A stretch of DNA of 64,000 nt. It comes from Calorimonas adulescens. GTDB taxonomy: Bacteria; Bacillota; Thermoanaerobacteria; Thermoanaerobacterales; UBA4877. The DNA is taken from NCBI RefSeq assembly GCF_008274215.1, contig NZ_VTPS01000006.1:1-64000 (forward strand). The letters run 5' to 3'. How positions within the stretch are numbered: the stretch's first letter is position 1; each line of letters begins with the position of its first letter. Positions 35,890-46,214 of the stretch are shown one piece after another. The position numbers were made by a program, and so were the translations under genes. Under the pieces are notes generated by a model. That model ran no database searches. It was not told the DNA's origin and was given only the letters and a program-made list of their open reading frames with translations.

Positions 35890-36948
35890 ATTGTTTCTAA
35901 AAAAATTTTGATAGTGTAAAATTTCAGTAGGTAACGAAGCAGGAAAATGAGGTATGAATGTAGAAAAAAGACCTCACCGGGGAAAAACCAAAAATCAAAA
36001 CAAAGGAAGGTGAGGTCTGATATTTTATTAGATATTCGACACATAGTGGGTATAATCCTGCTTTTTGCTCAAGGTTTAATGAAAATAATAAGGGAGAGTA
36101 AAGACTTTTATGAGCTGGAGAGAGGGATACATGAACTTACACAAAAAGTATCAAGACAACTTCTTGAGTGGGCAGCAGAAGAGATGGACAGAAAGTTAAT
36201 GGAGAACCGAGACAAAAGAGTGTGGGAAGTAATAGGATTTAGAGCGAAGCAGGTAATAAGCATTTTTGGGGAATTCACATATAGGAGAAGATTATACAGG
36301 AACAAAGAGACAGGTGAGATGAAATTTCTTTTAGATGAACTATTAGGGATTCCGACAGGAGCCAGAATAACACCGGGGATAAGGGAAATAGCGACAAAAC
36401 TAGCTACAGAAATGACTTTTGGGAAGACAGCAGAAATATTAAGCTATCTTTTCCCTCACATTAGCGCAATGACAATATGGAAGGCAGTGCAAGAAGTGGG
36501 AGATGAAATAAAGAAGGAAAGCGAAGAAGAGAAAGAAGCTGTGTTTGAATATGGAGAGATAGCAGAGGGAAAAGAAGAAACGGCAAAGCTTTATATAGAA
36601 AGAGACGAGGTAGTAATAAGACTGCAGAGGTCAGATAAGAAGAAAGGAGAAATAAAGCACTTTGTAATCTATGAAGGGAAAGAAGAAGAGTCGCAGGGAA
36701 GATATAGACTAAAGAACAAACTAGTAGTAAGCGGTTTAGCAGAAGGAGGGAGCATGTGGGAAGAAGTATACGCGAAAGTAGGTAACAAATAGAAATTAGA
36801 CAAAATAGGGAAAGTGTATATAGGAGGGGACGGAGCAGAATGGCCAAAAGGAGGATTAGAATACTTTTCGGGAGCAGAATATAGACTGGATCCCTATCAC
36901 TTGCAGACACGGACAAAGTTAGGTTACAAGCTTTACAATAATGAGTAA
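35890..36948 (+). mobile_element. Truncated ISLre2-family insertion sequence
   Basis: The transposase frame runs from ATG 35947 to a TAG at 36790, then continues in the same frame to 36948. The first part has the ISLre2 N-terminal helices and GEFTYRRRLYRNKETGE, LGIPTGARITPGIRE and MTIWKAVQEVG; the continuation has YIGGDGAEWPKGG and YRLDPYHLQ, the conserved DDE-like region. So there is one nonsense codon, and the C-terminal third and right end are lost. The likely left end is close to 35905 (GTGTAAAATTTCAG). No GGCCWGGCC repeat occurs in it. It landed between the BREX operon and the methyltransferase at 37102. Confidence 0.85.
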
Positions 36949-38424: not shown

Positions 38425-39543
38425 ATGGATTCCTTTGAAAAACTGAAGATACTTGGCCAGGCCTCCAAGTACGACATGTGCGGCTGCGGTAGGCCAAATG
38501 AGGACGACTACATAAAGAATGGTATATACAGGGTGCATACGCCAGATGGCATATGCTCCATATTTAAGGTGCTGCTTACAAATAAATGTCATAGAGACTG
38601 TGCCTACTGTGTAAACCGGTTTGAAAATAACACGGAGAGGACATCCTTTACCCCGGAGGAACTGGCAAAGGTGTTTATGGAGGTGAGGAGAAGGCACTCC
38701 ATTCAAGGCCTGTTTTTAAGCTCTGCTATTGATAAAAATCCTGACAGCGACATGTCCTCACTTATAGATACTGCAAAGATATTGAGGACAAGATATAACT
38801 TCAAAGGCTATATACACATGAAGGTCATGCCGGGCGCTTCCCGAGCTGCCATAGAGGAGGCTTCAAAGGTGGCAAATCGTCTCTCCCTGAATATAGAGGT
38901 GCCATCGGAAAGATATATGGAAAGACTGACAAGGGCCAAGAGGTTTGGGGAGATATTAAACGGCATGAGTGAGATTAAAAGGCTTAAAGATAAGGGAATT
39001 CGTGTATCGCAGACTACCCAGTTCATTGTGGGGGCCGCAGGAGAGAGCGACAGGGAGATAGTAGACGAGGCATACAGACTAAAGAGGGAATTCAACCTTG
39101 CCAGGGTATATTTTAGTGCATTTCGCCCTGTAGAGGGCACGCCTATGGAAGGGAAAGAGCCTACCCCACTTATGAGAGAGTACAGATTGTACCAGGTGGA
39201 TTTCCTCTTCAGCCAGTATGGGTTTAAGCCAGAAGACCTGAGCTATGAGAAAGACGGAAACCTGCCCATGGATAAAGACCCGAAGTATGTCTTTGCTTTA
39301 AATCATCCTGAGATCTATCCTGTGGAGATAAACACGGCAGACTATAATCTGCTTTTGTTGGTGCCGGGGATTGGACCTGTATCAGCGAAGAGGATATTAG
39401 AACGCAGGGTAAAAGATCCATATCATAGCATAGATGAACTTAAAGGTACCGGGACAGTTTTAAAAAGGGCCAGGCCGTTTATAACTATAAATGGCAAAAG
39501 TTTCACAGAAGAGAATAAACCCAAACAATTGTCCTTTATATAG
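38425..39543 (+). CDS. Radical SAM protein with C-terminal helix-hairpin-helix (putative DNA modification/repair family)
   Basis: Radical SAM enzyme of 372 residues. The cluster motif CHRDCAYC (CX3CX2C) lies at about 55-62 after an N-terminal Cys-rich segment (YDMCGCGR). A HhH DNA-binding motif INTADYNLLLLVPGIGPVSA lies at about 305-324. This is the TIGR03916 type, usually encoded beside a TIGR03915 partner carrying a UDG domain; here no partner is present and the neighbour is aroH, 4 nt upstream. ATG 38425. A reaction is not known for the family. Confidence 0.85.
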   Translation: MDSFEKLKILGQASKYDMCGCGRPNEDDYIKNGIYRVHTPDGICSIFKVLLTNKCHRDCAYCVNRFENNTERTSFTPEELAKVFMEVRRRHSIQGLFLSSAIDKNPDSDMSSLIDTAKILRTRYNFKGYIHMKVMPGASRAAIEEASKVANRLSLNIEVPSERYMERLTRAKRFGEILNGMSEIKRLKDKGIRVSQTTQFIVGAAGESDREIVDEAYRLKREFNLARVYFSAFRPVEGTPMEGKEPTPLMREYRLYQVDFLFSQYGFKPEDLSYEKDGNLPMDKDPKYVFALNHPEIYPVEINTADYNLLLLVPGIGPVSAKRILERRVKDPYHSIDELKGTGTVLKRARPFITINGKSFTEENKPKQLSFI

Positions 39544-39868
39544 GCGCCGTCTTCAGAGAGCCTTCAGTTGTATCTTATTAGATATAGTTAAACCAAGTAA
39601 CTGCATCTGTAAAATATAAATATCTTTACCACATCCCACACATCTTTCGCAAAATAGCCGCAATAATAACCACTAAATTTCTACATTTTTACTGAAGACC
39701 TTGGGAAATATGACCATATTGACGTCGCTCCCGCAGCGGACTTATAATTAAAGAAGCATAAAAGGTCTAAGTTATATATTTATTCAGATTTATTATTCTT
39801 TTGCGTGAATTTATGATATACCTGAGACTTTACACTGGAACAACAATATTGGGAATGGGGGAAATAAA
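39544..39868. other. Intergenic stretch with chemoreceptor promoter
   Basis: No open frame of note. A clear promoter lies at 39719-39748; about 120 nt of leader follow it, without a recognised riboswitch. A short CG-rich inverted repeat (GTCGCT/AGCGGAC, 39724-39740) fills the promoter spacer and may be an operator. Confidence 0.5.
39719..39748 (+). promoter_or_regulatory. Promoter of the chemoreceptor gene
   Basis: TTGACG (39719-39724), 18 nt, TATAAT (39743-39748): a sigma-A-type promoter, not the flagellar sigma-D type often found before chemoreceptors. Confidence 0.7.
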
Positions 39869-41827
39869 GTGACGCTTAAAAAATTATTTATAATAGGCCT
39901 TTGCAGTGTAATATTGTGGCAGGTAATTTTGTTTTTTCTTCCTGTCAGCAGGATACTTTTTACTATCCTGTCTACAATAGGAAACTCATTGATCTTCTAT
40001 CTACTAATAAGAAATTATTTCAAGGTCAACTTAAATGGATATGATGGCAGCAATAAGGCAATGGATACATATTCAAGGTCACTACCAGCAGAGGATATAA
40101 CCACTAAATCAAACCAAAACGCTTCAAGAAGGCTTACATCAAGGCTTGATGAAAACGTTTACGAGAGTCTGCTTTCTATCTCTGAGACAATGGGATTTGA
40201 CACACAGCAGCTCGCATGGCTGTCTAAAGACAATATAAAGATGTTTGAACAGATAGCAAAGATTTTCTATGACATAGAAGAATTCAGCCAACAGAATGCA
40301 GCAAGTACTGAGGAGATAACTGCGAACATCAGTGAGCTCGTTACAATATCAGAAAGATTGAAAAATGGGATTTTAAAGATTGAGGGTCAATCATCCGAAT
40401 CCACAAGCATGTTAAAGCAGGATAAAAAGACATTAGACAGTATAGGTGGCCTCTTAATGGACCTCACCCGCGTCATAAAGGATGCCTCGGACAACAATTT
40501 AGAGCTCCAGAATTCTTCCCAAAAGATATATAAGATTGTGGAATATATAGATACCATATCAAAACAGACAAACTTATTAGCGCTGAATGCATCTATTGAG
40601 GCGGCAAGGGTTGGAGAGGCTGGAAAAGGTTTTGCGGTAGTGGCACAGGAGATTAAAAAACTTGCTGATGAGACAAAAAAATCTATTTTTGAGATAGAAG
40701 AAATTACTGATGAAATATCTGAGAAAATAACAAATTCAAATGACGCAATGAAGACATGTATGGAGAAGCTCAAAGACGTCGAATCGGCTGCCTCAGTGTC
40801 TACAGATGTTATCATACAGATAGAAAACGTAGTAGAAAATATTACAAATTCTCTTACGGACCTTACAGAGATGTCTCTTACACAGATGAACGCAGCCACT
40901 GAAATAGAACAGGCTGCTGAGGCTATAGCGAAAGCTGTCGAAGACACCTATAATATAACAATGAATTTAATTAAAAAGGTTGATGTTCAAAGCAGCAAAA
41001 ATGATGAGATGCTGAAGTTTAGTAACAAACTGTGCGATACAGCTTCAACCCTGCAAACTATGATTGCAATGCTGAAGACAGACAAAGAAATTATTTTTGG
41101 GATCAATCCTTTCACATCTCCCGAAAATATAAAGAGGATGTATGTGCCAATACTTGAAAGGGTCTGTATGGGTGTGGGTTACAAGGCCAGGACCATAATA
41201 GTTAAAGATTATGATGCATTAAATGATGGAATAAAGAGGGGCGTTATAGATATTGGATGGTTTTCACCCTTTGCATATGTAAATGCACACGAAAAAAGCG
41301 GCGTAAAACCTATAGTTACGCCTAAGGTAAATGGCAGGTTTGCATATAATGGCTATATAATAGCTAAAAAGTCAAGCGGTATACACTCAATTGCTGATTT
41401 AAAAAATAAGCACTTTGGTTATGTAGATCCTGAGAGTGCATCAGGGTATATATACGCAAGACATATACTTAAAACAAATGGCATTGATCCAGATACGATT
41501 TTCAGCAAAACCTCTTTTATGGGAAGCCATGATAATGTAATTAAAGCTGTCCTTTCGGGTGAAATAGACGCAGGAGCTACATACAATGAAGCTATAGATA
41601 TGGCTGCTGCCAATGGCTTGCCTGTAAATGAACTTGAGATAATTGCACAGACCGAGGATATACCTAAAGACGCCATAGCAGTAAGCCCGAATATGCCTGA
41701 GGATACTGTATTAAAGTTGCAAAAGGCCTTTGTAGGATTTAATGATTTCAGTGGAATTGAAAGTCCGGTACAGGGATTTGTAGAAAGCAATGACAGCACA
41801 TATGATGTAATAAGAGCTATAGCATGA
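39869..41827 (+). CDS. Chemoreceptor with MCP signalling domain fused to a C-terminal PhnD-like binding domain
   Basis: 652 residues from GTG 39869 (GGGGGAAA upstream). Two membrane helices lie close together at the N-terminus (about 4-48) with almost no external loop. A cytoplasmic MCP module carries the hairpin tip [20 protein letters not shown] (about 233-252). From about residue 408 to the end is a phosphate/phosphonate-type binding protein ([57 protein letters not shown]). That places a PhnD-like sensor in the cytoplasm behind the signalling tip, the reverse of normal receptors. The ligand is unknown. No che genes are in the window. Confidence 0.87.
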
Positions 41828-41900: not shown

Positions 41901-41941
41901 TGTAAAGTACTTTTTGCACTGGCAACCAGCTATGGTATAAT
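41901..41941 (+). promoter_or_regulatory. Promoter with TGTAAAGTACTTT element (copy 1)
   Basis: TGTAAAGTACTTT (41901-41913) overlaps a promoter: TTTGCA (41913-41918), 17 nt, extended -10 TGGTATAAT (ends 41941). The 13-mer recurs at 47219-47231 before the M14 peptidase gene. Its core AAAGTACTTT is a palindrome and a candidate operator of the cluster. Confidence 0.6.
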
Positions 41942-41943
41942 AA

Positions 41944-42159
41944 TTACCCGGCATACCCTATTTCAAGAACAATCCGGGAGTAACTTCCAATCTAGTGGTA
42001 ATAAAGGTACAGCCCGAGGTAAGCCCATGGGGCGAGATTGTCTGTGAGCTTGGTGAGGCTGAGGACATCAAGACTGTGGATATAGACATAGGTCTGGTGG
42101 ATAAGGTGAGAAGGGATATAACTGTCTTTAAGGACAGAAGGCCTGCTGTGTACTTATAA
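41944..42159 (+). pseudogene. C-terminal remnant of a carbon-nitrogen hydrolase (nitrilase/omega-amidase family)
   Basis: About 70 codons in frame ending VSPWGEIVCELGEAED, VDIDIGLVDKVRRDI and KDRRPAVYL, which matches the tail of omega-amidase-type enzymes. The catalytic Glu-Lys-Cys portion is missing. A good promoter still stands just upstream, so an intact gene once headed this cluster. Confidence 0.7.
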
Positions 42160-42341: not shown

Positions 42342-43046
42342 ATGATTAAACTCATCGGCATCTTAATCATCATAGTTGGTTTTATATTCAGGGTAGATAC
42401 ACTGCTTACAGTGCTGGTTGCAGGTATTCTAACGGGACTCATATCTGGAATGGATATAATGTCTATACTGGATACAATGGGAAAAGCTTTTGTGGACAAC
42501 AGGTCGATGTCTCTCTTTGTGTTGACTTTACCAGCAATAGGCCTGGCCGAAAAGCACGGCCTGAAGGAACAAGCTGCAAGGCTTATTGGCTCCATCAGGG
42601 CGGCTACGGCAGGGCGAGTAATGTCTATATATCTTGTTTTAAGGACAATAATTGCAGGATTGGGACTGAGACTGGGCGGACACCCGCAGTTTATTCGTCC
42701 TTTAATAGCACCGATGGCTGAAGGGGCTATTAAAGCTAAGTACGGTGTAGATGAGCTGCCTGAGGACTTATATGAAGATGTGATGGGTCTTGCGGCGTCT
42801 TCAGAGAACTACGGTAATTTCTATGGACAGAATATATTTATTGCAGCCAGTGGGCTTTTGCTTATCCAGGGTGTTTTTAAAGAGGCAGGCATTTCTGTTG
42901 ACCTTATGGTCATGTCCAGATATGCGATACCGGTAGGCATAATGGCTGTAATATATGGTGTTATCCAGTATTATTTCTTTGACAAGAAAATAGAAAAGAG
43001 GATGGAAGGGGTGAAGGGAAATGCTGCAAAACCTTCTAAATCTTGA
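42342..43046 (+). CDS. DUF969 membrane permease subunit
   Basis: Integral membrane protein, 234 residues, about six helices, with the DUF969 core IGLAEKHGLKEQAARLI, LRLGGHPQFIRPLIAPMAEG and SSENYGNFYGQNIFIA. ATG 42342 follows AGGAAGG. It overlaps the DUF979 gene by 26 nt. DUF969/DUF979 pairs usually lie beside pcp and 5-oxoprolinase genes, as here, so uptake of pyroglutamate or related compounds is likely, by inference. Confidence 0.88.
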   Translation: MIKLIGILIIIVGFIFRVDTLLTVLVAGILTGLISGMDIMSILDTMGKAFVDNRSMSLFVLTLPAIGLAEKHGLKEQAARLIGSIRAATAGRVMSIYLVLRTIIAGLGLRLGGHPQFIRPLIAPMAEGAIKAKYGVDELPEDLYEDVMGLAASSENYGNFYGQNIFIAASGLLLIQGVFKEAGISVDLMVMSRYAIPVGIMAVIYGVIQYYFFDKKIEKRMEGVKGNAAKPSKS

Positions 43047-43947
43047 TTATATGTACTTTTTAACGGGGCTGCTGCTGATAGTCATATCCATATATACCTG
43101 CATGGACAAAAATAACCCGGCAAGATATACCACAGCTCTCTTTTGGACACTTTTTGGGCTCACATTTATGGCACCCATAGTTCACCTGCCCAATTTTATC
43201 GTTGGTATTTTCCTGATTGTAATGGCTGTTCTCTCTGGCGGAAAGATGGTCAGGCTTGGTTCTTATAAAGAGCCTACTCCTCATGAGAGAGAAAAAGAAG
43301 CGGAGAGAAGAGGAAATTCTCTCTTTATGCCGATATTAATCATCCCGATTGTAACCTTTGTGGTTGCTCAGTTTACAAAACTGGGGGCACTGGTAGGCCT
43401 GGCCTTAGCCTCAATAGCTGCCATTATTGTGGCTATGATTATGCTTCGAGAAGGCTTTTCCGGCACCATGGAGGAGTCAAGAAGGCTGGTAGACTCTATA
43501 AGTACAGCTGCAACACTTCCACAGCTGCTGGCTGCTCTGGGCGCTGTATTTAATGCTGCAGGCGTAGGCACAGTGGTGGCAGGACTCATCTCATCTGTTA
43601 TCCCTGTAAACATTCCACTTGCCACGTTAATTGCGTATTTCCTTGGCATGTCTATTTTTACCATAATTATGGGCAACGCCTTTGCTGCCTTTGCCGTAAT
43701 AACTACTGGTATAGGGATACCACTGGTGGTGCAGATGCACAGTGCTGACCCGGCCATACTGGGTGTCCTGGGTATGCTGGCGGGGTATTGCGGCACTCTG
43801 GTTACACCCATGGCGGCCAATTTTAACATTGTCCCGGTTGCCCTTTTAAATATGAAGGATACGTTTGGTGTTATTAAAAAACAGATTCCTGTAGCAGTTT
43901 TGATGTGGATTAGCATACTCATATTTGGATACATTGTGCTGTTTTAA
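43021..43947 (+). CDS. DUF979 membrane permease subunit
   Basis: Integral membrane protein, 308 residues, about nine helices, DUF979 family (MAPIVHLPNFIVGIFLI, NIPLATLIAYFLGMSIFTII, GMLAGYCGTLVTPMAANFN). Start ATG 43021 overlaps the DUF969 gene, so the two are translationally coupled and presumably form one transporter. A GGCCTGGCC repeat lies in its GLALA codons. Confidence 0.88.
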   Translation: MLQNLLNLDYMYFLTGLLLIVISIYTCMDKNNPARYTTALFWTLFGLTFMAPIVHLPNFIVGIFLIVMAVLSGGKMVRLGSYKEPTPHEREKEAERRGNSLFMPILIIPIVTFVVAQFTKLGALVGLALASIAAIIVAMIMLREGFSGTMEESRRLVDSISTAATLPQLLAALGAVFNAAGVGTVVAGLISSVIPVNIPLATLIAYFLGMSIFTIIMGNAFAAFAVITTGIGIPLVVQMHSADPAILGVLGMLAGYCGTLVTPMAANFNIVPVALLNMKDTFGVIKKQIPVAVLMWISILIFGYIVLF

Positions 43948-43968
43948 AGTTTAAGGGGGATTATTTAT

Positions 43969-44592
43969 ATGTCTAAGATTTTATTGACAGGTTTTGAGCC
44001 GTTTGGGGGAGAGAAGGTAAACCCATCAGAGCTGGCTGTGAAAGAGCTTGCAGGTAAAACAATCAGTGGACTGGAGGTGGTTACAGGGGTTATACCTGTT
44101 GTGACAAAAAAGTGCATTGACGAAACAGTAAAACTCATTGAGGAGTACTCTCCGGTGGCTGTCATAAATGTCGGCCAGGCCGGAGGCAGGATGGAAATAA
44201 GCGTAGAGAAGGTTGCCATAAATGTCAAAGACTACAGGATACCTGACAATGAGGGCAATCAGCTAAGGTATGCGCCTGTTGTAGAAGACGGGCCGGCGGC
44301 ATATTTTGCTACAATTCCTGTAGAAAAAATTGTTGACAATATGGTGGAAAACGTAGTGCCGTCGTCTGTATCATATACGGCGGGTACATACTGCTGCAAC
44401 GAGGTCTTCTATGGCGTATCCAGCTATATCCATACCAATAACCTCAAGATATTGAATGGATTTATCCACATCCCCTTTATACTGGAACAGGCTGCAGGGG
44501 CAAAGCCTCCAAGGCCGAGCATGTCTTTAGACACTATAGTAAAGGGGCTTGAGATAGCTATAGATACAGTTGCTGAATACATCAGACAATAA
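43969..44592 (+). CDS. pcp: Pyroglutamyl-peptidase I
   Basis: Cytoplasmic cysteine peptidase (C15) that removes N-terminal pyroglutamate, 207 residues. It has the N-terminal LLTGFEPFGGEKVNPS, catalytic Cys in YTAGTYCCNEVFY (about 144) and His in NGFIHIPF (about 168), with Glu near 80. ATG 43969 follows AAGGGGG. It supplies 5-oxoproline for the PxpABC enzyme encoded next. Confidence 0.95.
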   Translation: MSKILLTGFEPFGGEKVNPSELAVKELAGKTISGLEVVTGVIPVVTKKCIDETVKLIEEYSPVAVINVGQAGGRMEISVEKVAINVKDYRIPDNEGNQLRYAPVVEDGPAAYFATIPVEKIVDNMVENVVPSSVSYTAGTYCCNEVFYGVSSYIHTNNLKILNGFIHIPFILEQAAGAKPPRPSMSLDTIVKGLEIAIDTVAEYIRQ

Positions 44593-44663
44593 GGTTACGA
44601 TCCCGGTGGGGGTATACTGTATCGGTATGTCCTCCCCATACCATATATTTATACTGACGGTGG

Positions 44664-45446
44664 GTGGTTACTGTGACGTTTTCTGTAGATCTAAACAGCG
44701 ATGTTGGTGAGAGCTTTGGGGTATATAGGATAGGCATGGACCGTGAGGTATTAAATTATGTCACATCTGCCAACATTGCCTGTGGGTACCATGCAGGTGA
44801 TCCGCTGGTAATGGAAAAGACTGTAGAAATGGCTGTAAAAAATATGGTAGCCATAGGTGCCCATCCCGGTTATCCTGATATCATGGGCTTTGGCAGGAGA
44901 GAATTGAATGTAACACCGGAGGAGGTAAAGGCCTACGTCAAGTATCAGATAGGGGCACTCTATGCCTTTGCTGTTTCTAAAGGTGTAAAGCTGCAGCATG
45001 TGAAGGCCCATGGTGCTATGTACAACATGGCAGTCACTGACTATGGCCTGGCCAAAGCAATAGCAGAGGCAATATCGGAGGTAGATAAAGACCTCATAAT
45101 TCTTGCCATGGCAGGCAGCCAGATGATAGAAGCCGCAAGAGATGCTGGCATTAAGGCCGCAAGTGAGTTTTTTGCCGACAGGGCATACAATGATGACGGC
45201 ACTCTTGTATCAAGAGGCATACCGGGCTCAACCATAGAGGATGAAGAGCTGGCATTAGAGAGGGTCATAGAAGCGGTAGAAGAGGGCAGGGTAGAGACCA
45301 TAACCGGAAGGAGTATAAGCCTTAAGGTTGATTCCATATGTGTCCATGGGGATAACCCAAAGGCTCTGAGATTGGTAAAAAAAATCCGGGAAGGGCTGGA
45401 GAAAAATGGCATTAATGTTGTGCCGCTCTCCCGATTGCATCTATAA
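44664..45446 (+). CDS. pxpA: 5-oxoprolinase subunit A (LamB/YcsF family)
   Basis: Subunit of ATP-dependent 5-oxoprolinase, which opens pyroglutamate to glutamate. About 257-260 residues with VDLNSDVGESFG, SANIACGYHAGDP, VAIGAHPGYPD and LQHVKAHGAMYNMA. The start is GTG 44664 or, as likely, GTG 44673 (MTFSVDLN). It is the first of pxpABC, 72 nt after pcp. Confidence 0.93.
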   Translation: MVTVTFSVDLNSDVGESFGVYRIGMDREVLNYVTSANIACGYHAGDPLVMEKTVEMAVKNMVAIGAHPGYPDIMGFGRRELNVTPEEVKAYVKYQIGALYAFAVSKGVKLQHVKAHGAMYNMAVTDYGLAKAIAEAISEVDKDLIILAMAGSQMIEAARDAGIKAASEFFADRAYNDDGTLVSRGIPGSTIEDEELALERVIEAVEEGRVETITGRSISLKVDSICVHGDNPKALRLVKKIREGLEKNGINVVPLSRLHL

Positions 45447-45479
45447 AAAGGGAAACATGTTGTTCATAGGGGGGAGAGC

Positions 45480-46214
45480 ATGTATAATGAACCCAGGTTT
45501 ATGCCTGTAGGAGACCAGGCTCTGCTTATGGAACTGGGCGACGATATAGAGGAAGGATGTAATGCCTGTATAAAAGGCATGATAGAGCTCATTGAGGAAG
45601 TGGGAGTTAAAGGCATTATCGAGACAATACCCAGCTACAGGTCTATACTTATATATTACGACCCTTTCGTGACAGACTTCAATGAGACAGTAGACAGGCT
45701 TAAAAAGATATATGGCAGACTTGATATAAAAAGTGTAGAAAAAGGGGACACAGTTATAATACCTGTGCTCTATGGCGGCGAGGTGGGGCCCGACCTGCAA
45801 TTTGTAGCCAGGTACACGGGTCTGACTGAAGAAGAGGTCATAGATATACACACATCCATGGATTATCTTATATATATGCTTGGATTTGCGCCTGGCTTTC
45901 CTTATCTTGGAGGGATAGATGAACGGATACAGGTGCCGAGACTTGAGACGCCACGGGAGTGGATTCCAGCAGGCTCGGTAGGCATAGCAGGCAGACAGAC
46001 CGGCATATATACAGTAGATAGCCCTGGTGGCTGGAGGGTTATAGGCCTTACACCGGTTAAGCTGTATGACCCACATAGGGATATACCAGTGATCCTCAGG
46101 ATAGGTGACTACATAAGGTTCAGGCCGGTAACAGTGGAGGAGTTTGACGAGATAAAGAAGGGTGTGGAAAGTGGCACCTATTATCCTGAGGTATTAAGAG
46201 GTGGGGCAGGATGA
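45480..46214 (+). CDS. pxpB: 5-oxoprolinase subunit B (KipI family)
   Basis: 244 residues, cytoplasmic, with the family's FMPVGDQALLMELGD start, YRSILIYYDP, YMLGFAPGFPYLGGID and GSVGIAGRQTGIYTVDSPGGW (split here at residue blocks near 165-185). ATG 45480 follows GGGGGGAG. It overlaps pxpC by 4 nt, as expected for two subunits made together. Confidence 0.93.
   Translation: MYNEPRFMPVGDQALLMELGDDIEEGCNACIKGMIELIEEVGVKGIIETIPSYRSILIYYDPFVTDFNETVDRLKKIYGRLDIKSVEKGDTVIIPVLYGGEVGPDLQFVARYTGLTEEEVIDIHTSMDYLIYMLGFAPGFPYLGGIDERIQVPRLETPREWIPAGSVGIAGRQTGIYTVDSPGGWRVIGLTPVKLYDPHRDIPVILRIGDYIRFRPVTVEEFDEIKKGVESGTYYPEVLRGGAG

Follow-up and report, generated by a model that had tools for sequence, protein, structure and literature searches.

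The window analysed here, a 64,000-nucleotide stretch of Calorimonas adulescens DNA, contains on its forward strand, at positions 39869-41827, a complete gene for a 652-residue protein in which a chemoreceptor is fused to a periplasmic-binding-protein (PBP) domain. Translation begins at a GTG codon with a purine-rich ribosome site upstream, a Shine-Dalgarno-like GGGGG at about 39857-39861. From the N-terminus onward, the protein is composed of a two-helix membrane hairpin, a chemoreceptor signalling hairpin and a complete PhnD-type binding domain. Pfam assigns residues 201-355 to MCPsignal (PF00015, E 2.5e-32) and residues 410-645 to Phosphonate-bd (PF12974, model positions 1-242 of 242, E 1.3e-63), and reports no HAMP domain for the 652-residue receptor. 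The first-pass annotation of this DNA had placed a PhnD-like domain, bounded by residues 408 and 652, behind the signalling hairpin; the intact reading frame and the order and extent of the two Pfam matches bear out both the arrangement and the boundary. Because the profile names speak of a phosphonate transporter subunit or of a generic methyl-accepting chemotaxis protein (MCP), the function of such a receptor is easily missed. An identical protein (100%) is encoded in a second assembly (G001, JASEJQ010000082.1), publicly listed as a Thermoanaerobacteraceae metagenome-assembled genome, and about 40 further loci carry the same fusion as a single open reading frame (ORF). These occurrences exclude the misjoined assembly against which the first-pass annotation had cautioned, as well as an artificial reading of two genes as one; no point in favour of either was found, and we accord them next to no probability. 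The fusion architecture is almost certainly real.

In the window the receptor gene is not adjacent to glycerol genes, which assume importance below; its neighbour is a 5-oxoproline operon. Positions 42342-46214 encode DUF969 and DUF979 membrane proteins, then pyroglutamyl-peptidase, PxpA and a PxpB-type carboxyltransferase subunit, a coherent operon for the uptake and degradation of 5-oxoproline. A functional link between this operon and the receptor was considered and set aside: the pairing is not seen in relatives, and is therefore treated as a local coincidence, and a gap of about 515 bp with an apparent gene remnant lies between the receptor gene and the DUF969 gene. In that gap, at 41930-42150, the peptide PGIPYFKNNPGVTSNLVVIKVQPEVSPWGEIVCELGEAEDIKTVDIDIGLVDKV... 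resembles the C-terminal remnant of a nitrilase-type hydrolase; Pfam gave no match for this 71-residue remnant. Upstream of the locus, a UPF0236-family ORF (35947-36792) that matches only positions 7-220 of the 400 in its Pfam model is probably a truncated transposase-like element, and a radical SAM protein with a C-terminal helix-hairpin-helix domain (38425-39543) adjoins a type I chorismate mutase. No sigma-D motility promoter was found 5' of the receptor gene, the best match having three mismatches, and no phnCE transporter genes adjoin it.

The transmembrane hairpin (residues 6-24 and 29-47; 39884-40009) is predicted to lie with both termini inside, has Kyte-Doolittle peaks of 2.67 and 2.05 and is modelled by AlphaFold as helices 3-22 and 28-55. 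Since only about four residues separate the membrane segments, there is essentially no external loop, as the first-pass annotation had observed. Positive charges occupy both flanks (K4, K5, R48 and K52). Among 41 family members, hydropathy identifies two membrane segments in 20, one in three and none in 18; the start codons had been chosen by scoring both the codon and the ribosome site, and a few N-termini may therefore be misplaced. The Acetobacterium members and several others are devoid of any hydrophobic segment, and the tree forces at least four switches between the anchored and the soluble state. The membrane anchor is optional. Because the soluble versions share the binding domain at about 60% identity, an extracellular PBP is very unlikely in the anchored members, and this sharing, together with the basic residues flanking the hairpin, indicates that the C-terminus is cytoplasmic. 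The earlier proposal of a cytoplasmic C-terminal domain thus receives strong support, and we are highly confident that the binding pocket faces the cytoplasm.

The signalling coiled coil is an antiparallel hairpin with an N-arm of approximately residues 91-246 (40139-40606), a conserved tip that would contact CheA and CheW (residues 216-275; 40514-40693), recognized from the MCPsignal match and a median identity of 63%, and a C-arm of approximately residues 252-402 (40622-41074) that runs continuously into the PBP domain. In the AlphaFold model the arms appear as helices 83-246 and 252-401 and the binding domain opens with a strand at 407-412; mean pLDDT is 80, with most of the binding domain at 87-95, while a pTM of 0.49 leaves the relative placement of the domains uncertain. 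An indication of their placement comes from three homologues that lack seven residues in each arm, at 133-142 and 355-361. The midpoint of these paired deletions, at about residue 248, coincides with the modelled tip; the register of the hairpin is therefore fixed, the C-arm terminates next to residue 95 or so, and the PBP is consequently situated at the base of the bundle, the usual site of HAMP input. From residue 93 through the junction of coil and PBP, the 41 proteins contain no indels besides this mirror pair, a pattern to be expected of a join that matters mechanically. A strict methylation-site consensus is present in 20 of the 41 members, for the most part at the position that corresponds to E148-E149; in the window protein, only a relaxed pattern finds a match. 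That the receptor delivers its input to CheA is very probable.

Searches for the MCP-signal plus Phosphonate-bd architecture, of which the first-pass annotation had proposed a survey, yielded the 40 or so further loci from Clostridia and other Bacillota mentioned above. A scan of public genomes contributed 20 named loci, from Clostridium, Acetobacterium, Alkaliphilus and uncultured Bacillota, which show 57-68% binding-domain identity; 20 further anonymous genomes have the same architecture, and in every case it is encoded by one uninterrupted ORF. By profile search, the full-length architecture occurs in 22 of 398 genomes of the phylum and in 18 of 267 genera. When the binding domain alone was used as the query, scores fell from 258 to 168 bits between the fused domains and stand-alone binding proteins, a clear gap, so that the fused domain behaves like a separate clade. 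The nearest relative of the window receptor on the tree is that of G114. When the 41 proteins are compared with that of the window, median identity is highest at the tip (63%), followed by the binding domain (58%), the arms (30-35%) and the membrane hairpin (22%). That the binding domain is conserved nearly as well as the tip, and the arms are not, suggests that the family recognizes a single, constant ligand and not a changing assortment of nutrients.

The binding domain itself (residues 408-652; 41090-41824) has a type II PBP fold, and its best Foldseek match is apo PtxB (5o2k, TM 0.84 on the target). NCBIfam assigns it to the phosphate/phosphite/phosphonate binding-protein subfamily, at 157 bits against a cut-off of 261 for the PhnD equivalog (TIGR03431), which it does not reach. 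Located C-terminally, behind a coiled coil, it has no PhnD-style signal peptide or lipobox. Five residues that are invariant in the 41 proteins, Y448, Y493, S523, S525 and H554, align with those holding the phosphate or phosphite head in PtxB (PMC5700983) and E. coli PhnD. Tyr448 (41210-41212) is the equivalent of PhnD Y47 and PtxB Y55, S523-A-S-G526 (41435-41446) is that of the STS phosphate-binding motif, and His554 (41528-41530) is that of PtxB H160 and GpxB H199 (PMC5700983, PMC12718374), the last as placed by a HMMER alignment to PtxB, MAFFT setting PhnD H157 one column off. The head site is accordingly predicted to accept a phosphate or a phosphonate.

On the tail side, Glu574 (41588-41590; 40 of 41 members) corresponds to E. 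coli PhnD E177, and in the pair Lys600-Asp601 (41666-41671) the aspartate (41 of 41) corresponds to PhnD D205, while the lysine (40 of 41) is fusion-specific, none of the eight stand-alone PBPs compared having Lys at this position. Also fusion-specific is a W464-F-S-P motif (41258-41269), present in all 41 fusions; W464 and F465 are absent from the eight stand-alone proteins examined. To judge from these alignments, the tail environment is unlike that of any characterized member compared. The closest solved relatives by sequence are ArrX, which binds arsenate, and PtxB, which binds phosphite, and on this account the receptor might be thought to sense an inorganic oxyanion (phosphate, phosphite or arsenate) and report phosphorus status or arsenic. 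The capping Tyr from which PtxB derives its phosphite selectivity (PMC5700983) is replaced in the fusion by Asp601, however, and so space is left for a ligand tail. Moreover, neither ars, pst nor ptx genes are among the identified recurrent neighbours, and an oxyanion would leave the glycerol-gene linkage described next unexplained. We regard this reading as quite unlikely.

Clustering of the neighbours of 41 fusion loci revealed a recurrent glycerol theme: the glycerol kinase GlpK, the aquaglyceroporin GlpF and the glycerol-3-phosphate (G3P)-responsive antiterminator GlpP; a dehydrogenase set consisting of an FAD G3P dehydrogenase/oxidase-like protein with a BFD iron-sulphur domain, an FAD pyridine-nucleotide oxidoreductase and a DUF1667 protein; and DhaK, DhaL, a DhaM-type EIIA and a sigma-54 activator with an HPr domain. 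At least one structural glycerol gene or the antiterminator flanks 17 of 40 fusion loci, compared with none of 40 ordinary chemoreceptor loci drawn as controls from the same anonymous genome set. Within that set alone the counts are 10 of 20 fusion loci versus 0 of 40 controls (Fisher p 2.5e-6, kinship being ignored). About half of the fusion loci, those of Acetobacterium included, have no glycerol gene within the flank examined. At the level of whole genomes, 21 of the 22 that encode the fusion possess glpK, as do 172 of the remaining 376 (p about 2e-6), a comparison that ignores kinship and motility, all of the fusion genomes being chemotactic; the exception, G182, has the fusion and no recognizable glpK.

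The arrangement of these genes varies by lineage, from GlpF-GlpP-GlpK-receptor, receptor-GlpP-glp genes and GlpK-GlpF-receptor to glp genes-receptor-DhaKLM and to GlpP-receptor with the remainder elsewhere, so that the glycerol association must have arisen or been rearranged several times. GlpP is the immediate neighbour of the receptor in several loci, including that of G114. In six genomes apart from that of the window (L082-L089), the receptor is repeatedly accompanied by an HPr-containing sigma-54 activator that is shorter than the one in the host's glycerol operon. In G123 and G350 (L091 and L092) the receptor gene comes immediately after the enolase gene that closes a gap-pgk-tpi-eno glycolytic cluster, with glpK approximately 11.5 kb away; this position would also fit a triose-phosphate ligand.

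The same survey bears on a suggestion of the first-pass annotation, namely that the receptor reports on transporter state. ABC transporters are not among the recurrent neighbours of the gene, and it is the pocket for the ligand that is conserved. These findings leave the suggestion unsupported, and with no transporter constantly adjoining it was rejected as the main reading. A broader form of it would have the PBP domain no longer sense a ligand at all but dock on a membrane transporter or a metabolic enzyme and report its state. PBPs normally dock on permeases, and a domain at the membrane-proximal base would be suitably placed to do so. Yet conservation is among the highest at the residues of the pocket, the same pocket is retained in members that are fully soluble, and no permease is a constant neighbour, GlpF standing beside just 7 of 40 loci; such a docking role is very unlikely.

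The best explanation, which we favour with somewhat more confidence than doubt, is a cytoplasmic-facing chemoreceptor for an intracellular C3 phosphate, most likely sn-glycerol-3-phosphate, that reports the uptake and metabolism of glycerol to CheA. Taken separately, a C3 phosphate is the probable candidate ligand, and G3P specifically is a candidate that stands at about an even chance. G3P and dihydroxyacetone phosphate (DHAP) come into question because they are the metabolites common to the flanking glycerol operons; G3P is favoured by the repeated pairing of the receptor with GlpP, and DHAP is less likely. The first-pass annotation had supposed an internal phosphonate-like or other small ligand. 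An internal small ligand is probably correct; 'phosphonate-like' is too literal, given that neighbours and co-occurrence point to glycerol and that no other convincing PhnD relative was found in the window's genome. There is precedent in the literature for two parts of the proposal: GpxB, of the same fold family, binds G3P with a Kd of about 1 uM (PMC12718374), and the chemotactic response of E. coli to glycerol requires glpK (PMC4996493).

The sequence of events would be as follows. Glycerol would enter the cell and be phosphorylated by GlpK, and the phosphate head of the product would be held in the PBP cleft by Y448, Y493, S523, S525 and H554, with its C3 tail near E574, K600 and D601. Closure of the cleft could then shift the lobe joined to the C-arm and alter packing at the base of the bundle, by which CheA activity would be reset at the tip, some 150 residues away. 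Sequence and model show that the CheA-contact tip is intact and that the C-arm ends level with the base of the N-arm, making the PBP membrane-proximal; the anatomy shows that the N-terminal hairpin, where present, serves only as an anchor. Cells so equipped would be expected to swim up gradients of metabolizable glycerol.

A counterpoint to G3P lies in the tail site. The GpxB-type head residues (Tyr, Ser-x-Ser and His) are present as Y493, S523, S525 and H554, but the Arg223/Thr247 pair with which GpxB contacts the glycerol hydroxyls is absent (PMC12718374); by alignment through PhnD E177 and D205, the equivalent positions are E574 and D601, matching E. coli PhnD and not GpxB. In PhnD these residues hold the amine of 2-aminoethylphosphonate (PMC12718374), and the match would speak for an amine-tailed phospho- or phosphono-compound such as phosphoethanolamine, phosphoserine or 2-aminoethylphosphonate itself. 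Such a ligand is nevertheless unlikely, as the near-invariant Lys600 would adjoin its ammonium group, the genomic context is that of glycerol and not of phosphonate or amino-phosphate metabolism, and the window's genome is without another convincing PhnD. In evolutionary terms, the G3P reading describes a clostridial receptor family that would have arisen when a transporter-type binding protein was brought into the cytoplasm, joined to the signalling hairpin at its base and converted to an intracellular G3P sensor for glycerol taxis, an account that we find as easy to doubt as to accept.

Some elements of this system are already known. Chemoreceptors with C-terminal sensor domains have been described, as has the PBP fold in signalling, and a survey found that Pfam profiles for solute-binding proteins also match cytosolic and signalling proteins (PMC9602780). 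TlpD of Helicobacter pylori and other CZB chemoreceptors are likewise cytoplasmic, with a sensor C-terminal to the signalling hairpin and coupled at the base of the C-arm; their sensor, however, is a small zinc-binding helical bundle that detects oxidants, whereas the present sensor is a two-lobed PBP without relation to CZB, and a membrane anchor is common in the family (PMC12871147). PhnD, PtxB, HtxB, ArrX, AioX and GpxB (PF12974) share the fold family and the phosphate-head pocket residues with the fusion, but they are exported binding proteins; the fusion is cytoplasmic, covalently part of a chemoreceptor, endowed with W464 and K600 and without the PtxB-type Tyr cap. If the proposed ligand is right, the fusion would resemble the PacP receptors (sCache_PC3), which respond to phosphorylated C3 compounds with a preference for glycerol 3-phosphate, although PacP employs an extracytoplasmic sCache domain and belongs to plant-associated Proteobacteria, while the present family is clostridial and would use a PBP fold to sense within the cell (PMC12395807). 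Glycerol taxis in E. coli similarly depends on glycerol kinase, that is, on intracellular sensing, but operates through the PTS network, where a dedicated receptor would here read the metabolite directly (PMC4996493). In the open-licence literature searched, we found no description of an MCP-plus-Phosphonate-bd receptor or of its link to glycerol; a chemoreceptor with a C-terminal PhnD-type domain and such a role thus appears to be undescribed so far.

The coupling of taxis to internal metabolism is poorly resolved, and most known routes are indirect (redox, PTS or energy state). If the proposal is true, this widespread clostridial family would provide receptor-based, metabolism-dependent glycerol taxis by detecting a single central metabolite within the cytoplasm. 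In addition, it presents a naturally occurring example of a chemoreceptor that is driven by a PBP from its C-terminal side, at the bundle base, and since both anchored and soluble versions exist, the entry of input into the coiled coil can be compared between them. The candidate ligand is specific and the operon context defined, so that the proposal lends itself to direct testing by binding assays.

The host of the window possesses genes for both sides of the proposed connection. One contig (C3) carries a complete glycerol set, namely GlpP, GlpF, GlpK, the dehydrogenase trio, the HPr-sigma-54 activator, DhaK, DhaL and DhaM, adjoining genes that resemble those of microcompartment glycerol/diol utilization. 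The sigma-54 activator of this operon (L098, 14249-16300) combines an N-terminal HPr-like domain with PAS domains. From its ORFs, another contig (C1) encodes cheW, cheA, cheB, cheC, cheD, a flagellar-type sigma factor and flhF/flhA-like genes, and the genome contains about eight chemoreceptors. An in-frame TAG in cheA was considered and rejected; cheA is an intact ORF of 660 residues, and chemotaxis is therefore not broken at that gene.
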